Positions 17,371-37,841 of a DNA stretch of 64,000 nt are shown here, piece after piece. Source of the DNA: Terriglobia bacterium. GTDB lineage: Bacteria > Acidobacteriota > Terriglobia > JAJPHL01. The translations under genes and the position numbers were made by a program. Where the stretch lies: positions 124,001 through 188,000 of the forward strand of contig JAJPHL010000036.1 of NCBI GenBank assembly GCA_021325275.1, written 5' to 3'. Position 1 is the stretch's first letter. Every line of letters starts with the position of its first letter. The notes under the pieces are model-generated. The model was not told the DNA's origin, did no database searches, and saw only the letters and a program-made list of their open reading frames with translations.

Positions 17371-17630
17371 GACACTGAGATCACCGAGAACACAGAGATT
17401 ACTGAGATCACTGAGATCACTGAGATCACTGAGATCACAGAGAACACAAGACTGAATTTAAACAGAATGTACAGGATATACAGATAGGCGATCCCGATGG
17501 GAGGCTTCGCTCCGCATCCTGTTCATCCTGTTAAGATCCTTTCTTGTTTTTCTCTGTGTCCTCTGTGTTCTCAGTGATCTCTGTGTCAAACTTTCTGTGT
17601 CAAACTCTCTGTGTCAAACTCTTTGTGGCC
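17371..17630. repeat. Nested short-period inverted repeat (families B and C)
   Basis: The outer arms are built from 9-10-base units: CACTGAGAT/CACAGAGAA on the left (17371-17452) and their complements TCTCTGTGT/TTCTCAGTG on the right (about 17550-17630). Between them is an inner pair from another family, TGTACAGGATATACAG facing ATCCTGTTCATCCTGTT. The left arm contains five near-identical GAGATCACT steps. It fills the whole gap between the two methyltransferase genes, so it may act as a terminator-like structure. No ORF or tRNA is visible in it. Confidence 0.8.
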
Positions 17631-34974: not shown

Positions 34975-36621
34975 ATGAGTGTAAACATTAAATTGATCGT
35001 CACCGACCCTTCCGGCAAGAGCCGCGAAGTGGAAGTCCAGAAGTTTCCCTACACCATCGGCCGCCTCGGCGACAACGAACTGCTGCTGCGCGACAATCGC
35101 ATTTCGCGTCATCAGGCGCAAATCGTGGAGGAAGAAAATCAATATTTCCTCGAGGATTTGGAGAGCCGCCACGGCACGTTCGTAAATGGCGAAAAGGTCA
35201 CGCGCCACCGGCTGCAGCCGAACGATCGCATCGACTTCGGCGTAGCGGAATCGTTCGTGCTGACGTACTCGAGCGATCAGCCGGACATGAGCAAGCTGCT
35301 CGACCGCTTCCGGGCGTCTTCGGGCGAAGGAAGCTCGGTCGCCGAGTTGCAGCAACTCAACGCCATGTTGGAAGTCAGCCGCGTGCTGCACGCGGGACTC
35401 GCGCTTGACGACATTCTGACGCAAGTGGTGGATTCGTGTCTGCAGATCGCGCAAGTGGATCGCGGATTGCTTCTGCTGAAAGACGAAAGCGGCAAGCTGG
35501 AATTTCGCGTGGCCCGCGATCGCGCGCGCGGAACGCTGGGCGGCAAAAATTTAAAGGTGTCCAAGACGGTGGTCGATCGCGCCATCGAAACCCGCCGTCA
35601 CGTGATCCAAACCGACGTGGGCGGTGAAGCCGACGATCCGTTGGCCGCGCAGCATTCCATCGCCGATCTCGAAATCCGAACGGTGATTTGCCTGCCGCTG
35701 ATGCGCATGCAGGTGACGGCGGCGTCGGAAACCACATCGTACGGCTCGGCCGCCGACGTGATCGGCGTGCTGTACATGGATAGCAAGCGTCCCACGTCGA
35801 CGTTCTCGGACACCAGCCGCGAAATCTTGCAGAGCCTGTGCTTGGAAGCATCCACGGTTGTGGAAAACGCCAAGCTTATGGCGTTGTCGCGCGAGAGAGA
35901 AAAATTCGAGCAGGAACTGAAGATCGCGCGCACCATTCAGCAGAAGCTTTTGCCGCGGCGCTTCCCGGAGGGCTTGGCCTACCAAGTGACGGGCACCAAC
36001 GTGGCGTGTCACGAGGTCGGCGGCGATTACTGGGATGTTTTCGAACTCGGCGATGGCCGCTGCGGTGTCGTGATCGCCGACGTTTCGGGTAAGGGCATGT
36101 CGGCGGCGTTGCTGGCCTCTATGCTGCAAGGCGTTTTTTGGGCCACCGCGATGGCCGGACGGCGTCCCGCGGAAGTGGCGCGCGTGGTGAATTCCTACGT
36201 GTGCGAGCGGTCGACGCCCGACAAATACGCAACGCTGTTTTACGGTATTCTCGATCCGGCGGGACAAATCATCTACGTGAATGCCGGACACAATCCCCCG
36301 ATGCTGGTGGGTCCGGGCCGCATTCATCCGCTTGGCTCGGAGAACCTGCCGATCGGAATGTTCCCGCAAGCGCAGTACACCGACACCACGCTCGACTTCG
36401 CCTGCGGCGACACGCTGGTGCTCTACACCGACGGAGTCACGGAGGCCGCTAATGGCGGCGACGAAATGTTCGGCGAGGATCGCTTGAAAAATTTCCTGGG
36501 ACCATGCTCCGGCAACTCCTGCGAACAATTGCGCGACAGCCTGCTGCAAGCCGTGAAGGTTTTTGCCGCGGGCGCGCCGCAAAACGACGACATTACCGTA
36601 GTGATTGCCCGCCGCTGTTAA
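34975..36621 (+). CDS. FHA-GAF-PP2C (SpoIIE/RsbU-type) protein phosphatase
   Basis: Cytoplasmic signalling protein of 548 residues. An N-terminal FHA domain (about 1-100; YTIGRLGDNELLLRDNRISRHQAQI, then SRHGTFVNG) binds phosphothreonine peptides. A GAF domain spans about 140-305, a coiled connector (LSREREKFEQELKIARTIQQKLLPRRFP) links it, and a SpoIIE-type PP2C phosphatase fills 345-548, with the metal-binding aspartates in VGGDYWDVF, VIADVSGKGM, LYTDGVTEA and NDDITVVI. Such proteins dephosphorylate anti-sigma-factor antagonists in partner-switching pathways or reverse Ser/Thr kinases. A Ser/Thr kinase gene lies 2 kb away and may be linked functionally. No anti-sigma gene is adjacent. Confidence 0.92.
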   Translation: MSVNIKLIVTDPSGKSREVEVQKFPYTIGRLGDNELLLRDNRISRHQAQIVEEENQYFLEDLESRHGTFVNGEKVTRHRLQPNDRIDFGVAESFVLTYSSDQPDMSKLLDRFRASSGEGSSVAELQQLNAMLEVSRVLHAGLALDDILTQVVDSCLQIAQVDRGLLLLKDESGKLEFRVARDRARGTLGGKNLKVSKTVVDRAIETRRHVIQTDVGGEADDPLAAQHSIADLEIRTVICLPLMRMQVTAASETTSYGSAADVIGVLYMDSKRPTSTFSDTSREILQSLCLEASTVVENAKLMALSREREKFEQELKIARTIQQKLLPRRFPEGLAYQVTGTNVACHEVGGDYWDVFELGDGRCGVVIADVSGKGMSAALLASMLQGVFWATAMAGRRPAEVARVVNSYVCERSTPDKYATLFYGILDPAGQIIYVNAGHNPPMLVGPGRIHPLGSENLPIGMFPQAQYTDTTLDFACGDTLVLYTDGVTEAANGGDEMFGEDRLKNFLGPCSGNSCEQLRDSLLQAVKVFAAGAPQNDDITVVIARRC

Positions 36622-36634
36622 CTACCGTCCCTGT

Positions 36635-37116
36635 GGAGTCTGTGTGACAACTCAGCGCCGCAGGAGCCTCTTTGAAAATTCAGCCCCGAAGGAGTCTGTG
36701 TGACAACCCAGCCCCGAAGGAGTCTGTGTGACAACCCAGCCCCGAAGGAGTCTGTGTGAAAACTCGACCCAAAGGAGCCTGTGTGAAAATTCAGCCCCGA
36801 AGGGGCGCGCTATGACAGCCCAGGCTGAAGCCGGAGCCGTTTTTGCTCCGGCGCAGGCCTGGGTCAGAGGGCCAAAAAACGAAGCGCTGAAGGCGCGATT
36901 CAAATAATAGGAATGCGAGCAAGAATTTCTTAGGCCGTCCTTTCAGGACTCGCTTTATCACGCAAACACGACCCAGGCCCACGCCGGAGCAAAAGACGCT
37001 CCGGCTCCGACCTGGGCTGTCATAGCTCGCCCCTTCAGGGCTGAGTTGTCACACAGACTCCTTCGGGGCGAGTTTTCACATAGACTCTTTCGGGGCTGGG
37101 CTGTCACACAGACTCT
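36635..37116. repeat. Large compound inverted repeat with 28-bp tandem arms (family F)
   Basis: Left: six tandem units of 28 bases (one of 27) at 36635-36801, consensus beginning GGAGTCTGTGTGACAACCCA and ending GCCCCGAA. Then comes a core of about 55 bases (about 36812-36866) holding the hairpin CCGGAGC...GCTCCGG. A loop of about 100 bases follows, then an inverted copy of the core (about 36970-37024) and three inverted 28-base units at 37034-37116. The arms pair almost throughout. It occupies the whole 512-base gap between the phosphatase and B3/4 genes. The loop contains GCGCTGAAGGCGC and shows no gene. Confidence 0.85.
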
Positions 37117-37133
37117 TGTGGAGTGCGTCCAAA

Positions 37134-37841
37134 TCACCACTCAAACGCCGGCTGCTCACGACTCAGAACGCACGCCGTGGTCTCGCCACCGCAATGCTGA
37201 CGCACCAACTCGGCAAGCCGCGCCATCGGCGCCGCTAAGTCTTCGGGCGCGAACGGCGGCGACATCAGGTCCACGTTGATGGCGAGATTCCGCGTGGCCG
37301 CCGTGAGTTTGCTGAAATCCGCGTTGCGCCACGTCCAGCGGCGGCACATCACGCGGCGCGTTCCCGGTGTGTAGTAGATGATTTCGCCGGGCGCGGGGTT
37401 TTCCACTGCCGCCGGTTTGAACAGCGGCGCGAAAGTTTCGTCGCCGCGCGAGAGACCCAAACACAAATCGCCTGCGACAGAATCCAGATCGTCGCCGCCG
37501 CACGGCAGCGTCCAGCTAAGACTGATGGTGTTCATGATGTCGACGGCACGGTTGATCGAACGCGGCGACTTTCTTTTGCGGATTTGGCTGTGCAGAAAGC
37601 GAATGCTCGGAGTGAACTTGGCAGGATCCGCGCCGAACTTCACGTACGCCGCATCCCACGCCGCGATGCGCTCCTCCTCCTGTGAAGTAGGAATCGCTCC
37701 GACTCGCGCCACAGCGTCCGTGAGCAATCGCGCCGTTTCCAGATCGCCTTCGTGGTTCGCGATTCCCGTGGCGATCACCACACCGCCGCGAAATCCTGGG
37801 AACATTTCGAAAATCGCCGGCTCAATGTTGTAGTTGGGCAT
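37134..37841 (-). CDS. B3/B4 tRNA-binding-domain protein
   Basis: Free-standing B3/4 domain of 235 residues, related to the editing region of the phenylalanyl-tRNA synthetase beta subunit. PAIFEMFPGFRGGVVIATGI opens the domain; KRKSPRSINRAVDIMNTISL (near 88-107) and a late GxRRVMCRRWTWRNAD segment match the family. Free-standing members are thought to act on mischarged tRNA or as accessory nucleic-acid binders, but this is not settled. It is soluble. Its start lies 20 bases inside the MaoC-like gene, so it is translated from the same mRNA by coupling. Confidence 0.8.
   Translation of the reverse strand: MPNYNIEPAIFEMFPGFRGGVVIATGIANHEGDLETARLLTDAVARVGAIPTSQEEERIAAWDAAYVKFGADPAKFTPSIRFLHSQIRKRKSPRSINRAVDIMNTISLSWTLPCGGDDLDSVAGDLCLGLSRGDETFAPLFKPAAVENPAPGEIIYYTPGTRRVMCRRWTWRNADFSKLTAATRNLAINVDLMSPPFAPEDLAAPMARLAELVRQHCGGETTACVLSREQPAFEW

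Follow-up and report, generated by a model that had tools for sequence, protein, structure and literature searches.

Between two convergent genes, the window (the whole 64,000-nucleotide stretch of DNA analysed here) contains a palindrome of about 0.5 kb at 36635-37117, composed of six 28-base units, a core of two hairpins, a loop, a mirrored core, and three mirrored units (Table 1). The palindrome occupies the gap between these genes, with 13 and 16 nt separating it from the gene ends. Each arm has the same order of parts: hairpin H1 (GCCCCGAAGGGGC), a stretch of about 12 nt whose last bases are AG, H2 (CCCAGG...CCTGGG), a spacer, and H3 (GCGCTGAAGGCGC), all mirrored on the right. TRF reported 6.1 direct copies with period 28 (36635-36803, score 226) and 3.0 inverted copies with period 27, and all nine units found by a unit scan of the 64-kb window were in the element, whereas none of three mononucleotide shuffles contained any. 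The six and three units are as assembled, and the element is interior to a contig of 197,533 bp (C2).

The main inverted repeat has arms of 146 nt each (36720-36865 and 36970-37115), which are 88% complementary and separated by a gap of 104 nt. RNA folding of 36620-37130 gave -321.9 kcal/mol compared to -179.4 (sd 7.0) for dinucleotide shuffles (z -20.5), and none of 100 shuffles folded as well. The initial annotation of a compound inverted repeat with 28-bp tandem arms, six units against three, is therefore upheld by TRF, arm complementarity, and folding. It also described a 55-base palindromic core; an inverted core is present, but the supposed single palindrome is actually two hairpins, H1 and H2.

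Table 1. Coordinates of the palindromic element and neighbouring features in the window.
Feature	Position	Strand	Remarks
Neighbour gene, FHA-GAF-SpoIIE protein	34975..36621	+	3' end toward element
Left flank CCTGTGG	36630..36636	.	7-base direct repeat with one mismatch; target duplication possible
Left array, six 28-bp units (unit 5 = 27 nt)	36635..36801	+	Consensus GGAGTCTGTGTGACAACTCAGCCCCGAA
Left-array unit starts	36635, 36663, 36691, 36719, 36747, 36774	+	Unit scan, TRF
H1, left arm hairpin 1 (GCCCCGAAGGGGC)	36794..36806	+	Overlaps unit 6 end
H2, hairpin 2 (CCCAGG...GCCGGAGCCGTTTTTGCTCCGGC...CCTGGG)	36819..36863	+	Immediately 3' of AG
H3, hairpin 3 (GCGCTGAAGGCGC)	36884..36896	+	Sequence, core alignment
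Central loop	36897..36936	.	No transposase gene; alignable among core copies
H3', diverged inverted partner of H3	36937..36949	-	Sequence, core alignment
H2', inverted H2	36972..37016	-	Sequence, descriptor
H1', inverted H1	37029..37041	-	Sequence, descriptor
Right array, three inverted units, 27-28 nt	37034..37117	-	TRF, unit scan
Right flank CTTGTGG	37115..37121	.	6/7 match to left CCTGTGG
Neighbour gene, B3/4-domain protein	37134..37841	-	Convergent with FHA-GAF-SpoIIE gene

Several identities were considered for the element and rejected. It is not a CRISPR array, because its units abut head to tail and there are no unique spacers. It is not an insertion sequence with its own gene (IS200/IS605 tnpA), because the only open frame of at least 80 aa inside it is one of 83 aa with no Y1 motif. 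A search of the window against Rfam returned no match, which excludes a known Rfam family. Together with its membership in a dispersed family, these results agree with the first description of the element as neither CRISPR, IS, nor simple terminator. Three short neighbouring tandem arrays (CACTGAGAT; TTCTCAGTGACCTCTGTG; TCTCTGTGTCAAAC) occur elsewhere in the window (17373-17627), and they are different from the 28-bp unit.

The repeat family in its own genome and in relatives

Dispersal was assessed in the element's own genome (G000, 6.86 Mb), which has 74 BLAST matches to the element. Besides the window, 28 further regions of this genome were retrieved for comparison, eight of which lie at contig ends (L013, L017, L018, L021, L023, L029, L031, and L033). 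The refuting outcome named at the outset, a sequence confined to this locus and missing from relatives, does not apply in its first half. Its second half is largely borne out, as only 3 of 41 genomes matched, own genome included, in a set without genomes of the same genus or family. The exact unit pattern had one match in the contig database genome_contigs, a Terriglobia MAG; the own genome is possibly absent from that database. Genome G008, which belongs to one class with G000, contains the matching stretch of that MAG on one of its contigs, which makes Terriglobia the probable class of G000. The element is one copy of a scattered, gene-less repeat family, which is probably mobile.

The central part of the element, core A (36794-37041, about 240 bases), was aligned in the window and 12 other loci, and 8 of the 13 copies are complete. 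Core A aligns across loci with its loop included, and it therefore recurs as one block. The loop motif was initially taken for a nested element, which the alignment contradicts: GCGCTGAAGGCGC is the H3 hairpin of the same arm, with its inverted partner H3', and it is present in 12 of the 13 aligned copies (the remaining one is truncated). Two other cores, B and C, are also surrounded by the same 28-base units, and L022 and L025 have units without any core. Matches to core B longer than 200 nt occur at 15 places. By eye, units are on both sides in 10 of these and three are cut off at contig ends; in L107 and L121, the unit is degenerate or missing on one side.

Other repeated sequences meet the cores at contig ends. 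Two multi-copy sequences join core B, one ending in TTTTGGACAACAGT (L021, L029, and L117) and the other in TTTTGGACAGCAGTG (L031 and L033), each at its own fixed point beside H1. They seem to be insertion sequences targeting the core B repeat. At three contig ends (L017, L018, and L023), core A is joined next to H2 by another repeated end, GGCGCTTTCATACA, as if an IS targets the core A hairpin.

Y1 transposase genes, their flanking hairpins, and sister families

The initial annotation suggested looking for a RAYT-like transposase elsewhere in the genome, and five Y1_Tnp matches are present in G000. Two of the genes (L049 and L050) are intact and encode DHVH, WQ, and Y---Q--HH motifs; their proteins score above the NCBIfam cut-off for IS200 and below that for REP transposases. 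Proteins P0001, P0002 (from L050), and the L041 protein carry DH[IV]H, WQ, and Y---Q--HH, and all are encoded outside the window element. The HUH and Tyr residues of P0002 align with transposase 2xm3, which we take to be ISDra2 TnpA. Another Y1 copy in G000, on C14, is a remnant in which the Tyr motif is missing.

Flanks of Y1 genes were compared in a first set of 36 loci (from a scan of 61 genomes plus seven other loci), of which 26 were kept and 10 were dropped because they had no motif by pattern. All 19 Y---Q--HH genes (17 with strict HH; L075 and L080 near) are flanked by inverted repeats above all 100 mononucleotide shuffles, compared to one of the seven other Y1 genes in the same test. 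Hairpins per 160-nt side averaged 2.45 for Y---Q--HH genes (0.49 in dinucleotide shuffles) and 1.14 for other Y1 genes (0.32 in shuffles), and at least two hairpins on both sides were found in 15/19 and 1/7, respectively. By eye, most Y---Q--HH flanks in this set have the H1, AG-H2, H3 order of the window element.

A descriptor of H1 and AG-H2 was built with the window element and the first-set flanks in view; H3 was outside the descriptor and judged by eye. In the window it gave four matches, both element arms among them (mean 0.8 in 20 shuffles). In the first set it matched 19 of 38 sides of Y---Q--HH genes, with 5 of 38 on the wrong strand, and none of the seven other Y1 genes. The frozen descriptor was then applied to later loci picked by similarity to P0001 alone. 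Searching 249 genomes with this one Y---Q--HH protein gave matches in 102, some of them weak, and 17 of the 21 loci in the later set were evaluable. Inverted repeats above 100 dinucleotide shuffles flank 16 of these 17, and 11 have at least two hairpins on both sides. The frozen descriptor matched 24 of 34 sides (0.05 expected from shuffles), and wrong-strand matches were 3/34. The window element and the Y---Q--HH genes of Terriglobia thus have a common end architecture, although most of the Y1 genes seen have a shorter H2 than the window element.

Links between gene and repeat differ among families. In genome G019, a core-A-like H1-H2-H3 lies immediately before an intact Y1 gene (L041, L073), and the L041 arm has 35 matches in that genome, itself included. 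In G000, inverted repeats flanking a Y1 gene are matched by a repeat family for L050: its arm has ten further copies (89-97%). Nine gene-less copies were examined, with lengths of 272-377 bases and both arms present. All nine retain 48-135 aligned nt of the 3' end of the transposase gene, well above shuffles, and six have a common deletion point at gene nt 302. They are copies of internally deleted elements, and the gene-less L050 family is derived from an autonomous Y1 element. For core A in G000, a match of this type is limited to part of an H2 next to the disrupted C14 gene (90% over 30 nt). No intact Y1 gene flanked by core A's own ends was found in G000, which is the main gap for core A parentage.

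Nesting of elements as such, which had also been proposed, is real and is seen in core B and in L050-type copies. A repeat of about 190 bp with ends GGTGTCTCAGTTTGAAT and flanking direct repeats of 6-9 bases occurs at L143, L144, L146, L147, L149, and L152. Its hairpins resemble those beside the L052 Y1 gene, and L050-type elements are nested inside it. A search for an empty site of the L050 family in L052-type repeats showed nested copies and no clean empty junction, and the outer frame common to L013 and L016 was found in just those two copies, both filled. At L051 (1290-1965), an inverted repeat encloses a Y1 gene remnant, and a 9-base direct repeat bounds the outer ends (ACTTGTYCCTGGAGTTTGGACATTT) of the inverted repeat.

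Origin of the core and of the unit arrays

We consider it rather probable that the core at 36794-37041 arose as a miniature, without a gene, from a Y---Q--HH HUH/Y1 transposon and is nested in a second, unit-ended repeat. In Terriglobia, transposons of this kind have a transposase gene of about 150 aa with two to three small hairpins on each side, always in the order H1, AG-H2, H3, and mirrored. When the region becomes single-stranded, the transposase would bind the end hairpins and could move or copy the whole palindrome in trans; a Y1 enzyme would have moved core A in this way. The 28-base units may be the ends of the second repeat (AGTCTGTGTGACAAC...), which is possibly target-duplicating. 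Core A and other cores would have nested into or around this unit-ended repeat, and the number of units would then have been altered separately on each side. A broader proposal is more tentative, and we hold it with somewhat less than even confidence: Y---Q--HH enzymes, whose descriptions to date give them no IS features, may be the transposases of a distinct three-hairpin-ended class widespread in Terriglobia, with miniatures nesting at palindrome centres and stacked end units recording successive insertions, so that giant palindromes would be layered insertion records.

Local tandem duplication of a single unit, originally supposed to have made the arms grow, may coexist with a Y1-derived core, and we regard it as unlikely to be the general explanation of the arrays. 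Some duplication of units has likely occurred, given that 5 of 38 neighbour pairs have identity of at least 0.90; units 3 and 4 of the window element are identical, and the other four pairs are at 0.90-0.92. Unit number per arm ranges from 1 to 6 and is commonly unequal between arms, indicating that arms change independently. L013 and L016 have the outer frame and core A in common and units on opposite sides, so that units are gained and lost without regard to the core (L016 has a 55-base unit/inverted-unit palindrome inside the left H1, and L013 has two units, 57 bases, beside the right H1). Such changes may come about through nesting at palindrome centres, slippage, or loss of units from older arrays. 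Against tandem growth, neighbours resemble each other no more than they resemble units at other loci (identity 0.733 within arrays compared to 0.727; 82 units; 671 of 2000 permutations as high), and the subtypes follow an order within the arms. At position 14, 44 of 52 innermost units have C and 22 of 38 outer units have A (p 6.5e-6 in a Fisher test of C and A; 52 arrays and 90 units at a looser threshold). Innermost left-right pairs also average 0.825, compared to 0.758 for neighbours within one arm; this mirror similarity was reached in 94 of 4000 permutations overall and in 1060 of 4000 within core type, where it is not significant. With this mirror similarity weak and many arms unequal, a purely nested origin of the arms is a candidate at most. 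Unit sequences for the most part do not support tandem duplication as the way in which the arms grew.

The element could also be an ordinary MITE of a DDE transposase, with the units as terminal inverted repeats, a duplicated target, and the inner hairpins as passenger sequence; we see this as unlikely. Direct repeats do flank several of these sequences. L052-type sister repeats have terminal direct repeats of 6-9 bases in six of six copies, four of them 7 or more (cross pairs 0/30; 2 of 2000 re-pairings as high), and such repeats are not expected from an IS200-type enzyme and count against the Y1 reading. The C14 element has a 9-base direct repeat at its outer ends, and the window element is flanked by CCTGTGG/CTTGTGG. 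Seventeen unit-ended loci average 5.41 bases in common across their ends, a mean reached in 10 of 2000 re-pairings (cross pairs, 4.72), and 5 of 17 have 7 or more compared to 15 of 272 cross pairs. At fixed register, however, k=7 is the sole outlier among five lengths (97/5000). Y1 loci as a group also show no flanking direct repeats (26 usable loci out of 37; as high a value in 1494 of 5000 re-pairings), with ends that are uncertain because they were set solely by where the inverted repeat stops. IS200-type Y1 enzymes are not known to leave a target duplication, and the group result is in keeping with this. A selected regulatory role, whatever the origin, would make the element a two-way transcription terminator or an mRNA-protecting hairpin between gene 3' ends. 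The strong fold and the closeness to both convergent gene ends fit such a role, as do the contexts of 21 loci (9 convergent, 10 tandem, 0 divergent, 2 unknown, from a rough codon-usage caller). However, insertion tolerance near 3' ends would produce an equal bias, and REPs too are described as lying mostly between convergent and unidirectional genes (PMC3733652). Copies also differ in core type and unit number, and the arms show no pair-keeping within copies: among eight core A copies, left and right arms of one copy match each other no more closely than arms taken from different copies (8305 of 10000 re-pairings did as well), and co-variation as a sign of selected pairing was not seen. We therefore find a regulatory explanation quite improbable.

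If the derivation of core A from a Y---Q--HH transposon is right, subclass 1.2 HUH/Y1 proteins would gain ends and miniature derivatives, hence a mobility assay, and palindromic repeats of Acidobacteriota would be tied to these proteins. The element would also be a setting in which to study how target-duplicating elements and single-strand transposases build upon each other.

Comparison with known repeat systems

REPINs and BIMEs moved by RAYTs are described as inverted hairpin pairs that are intergenic, repeated, found in tandem clusters, and linked to Y1 enzymes, all of which resemble the present family, and some REPIN clusters have been ascribed to insertion into existing REPINs (PMC3116915). 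Compared to those descriptions, the window element has three hairpins per arm, a core of about 240 bp, and 28-bp end arrays, and the enzyme linked here is of the Y---Q--HH kind rather than a class 2 RAYT. Like REPs, the family consists of short palindromes in many intergenic copies, arranged as inverted pairs. The REP foot GTAG/GTGG is absent (the foot of H2 is ACAG, and no GTAG precedes H1 or H3), and sister core C carries GTAG. Of the features that define a MITE, the element is gene-less and dispersed with inverted ends; derivation from an autonomous element is seen for the sister L050 family, and no parent of core A was found.

TnpA-Y1 proteins have been divided into classes, and IS200-kind enzymes among them act on hairpins in single strands (PMC6006769). 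P0001 and P0002 resemble subclass 1.2 in their DHVH, WQ, and Y---Q--HH motifs and length of about 150 aa; that subclass is listed as REP "no", with terminal structures "generally without", mostly in Cyanobacteria and Bacteroidetes (PMC6006769). In contrast, structured ends and miniature copies are found here, in Terriglobia. Class 3 occurs in several phyla including Acidobacteria, has atypical hairpins and a 5' foot CnGA, and reaches about 600 copies in Solibacter; its Y motif, as given, is Y----Q without HH, unlike Y---Q--HH (PMC6006769). A search by title and start of abstract, with most subscription journals outside it, returned no literature on three-hairpin ends of Y---Q--HH genes.

TIRtrons (TIRYT) are described as Y1 genes with long, partly self-complementary inverted repeats, including in Koribacter and other acidobacteria, and one Koribacter TIR family is repeated within its genome (PMC3733652). 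In a later classification, 20 of 26 TIRYT were assigned to subclass 2.1 (PMC6006769). The fixed H1-H2-H3 order, gene-derived miniatures, and end arrays seen here do not figure in the TIRtron description consulted (PMC3733652). By the criterion defined in this analysis, H1-AG-H2 ends as at Y---Q--HH genes are present in the window element.
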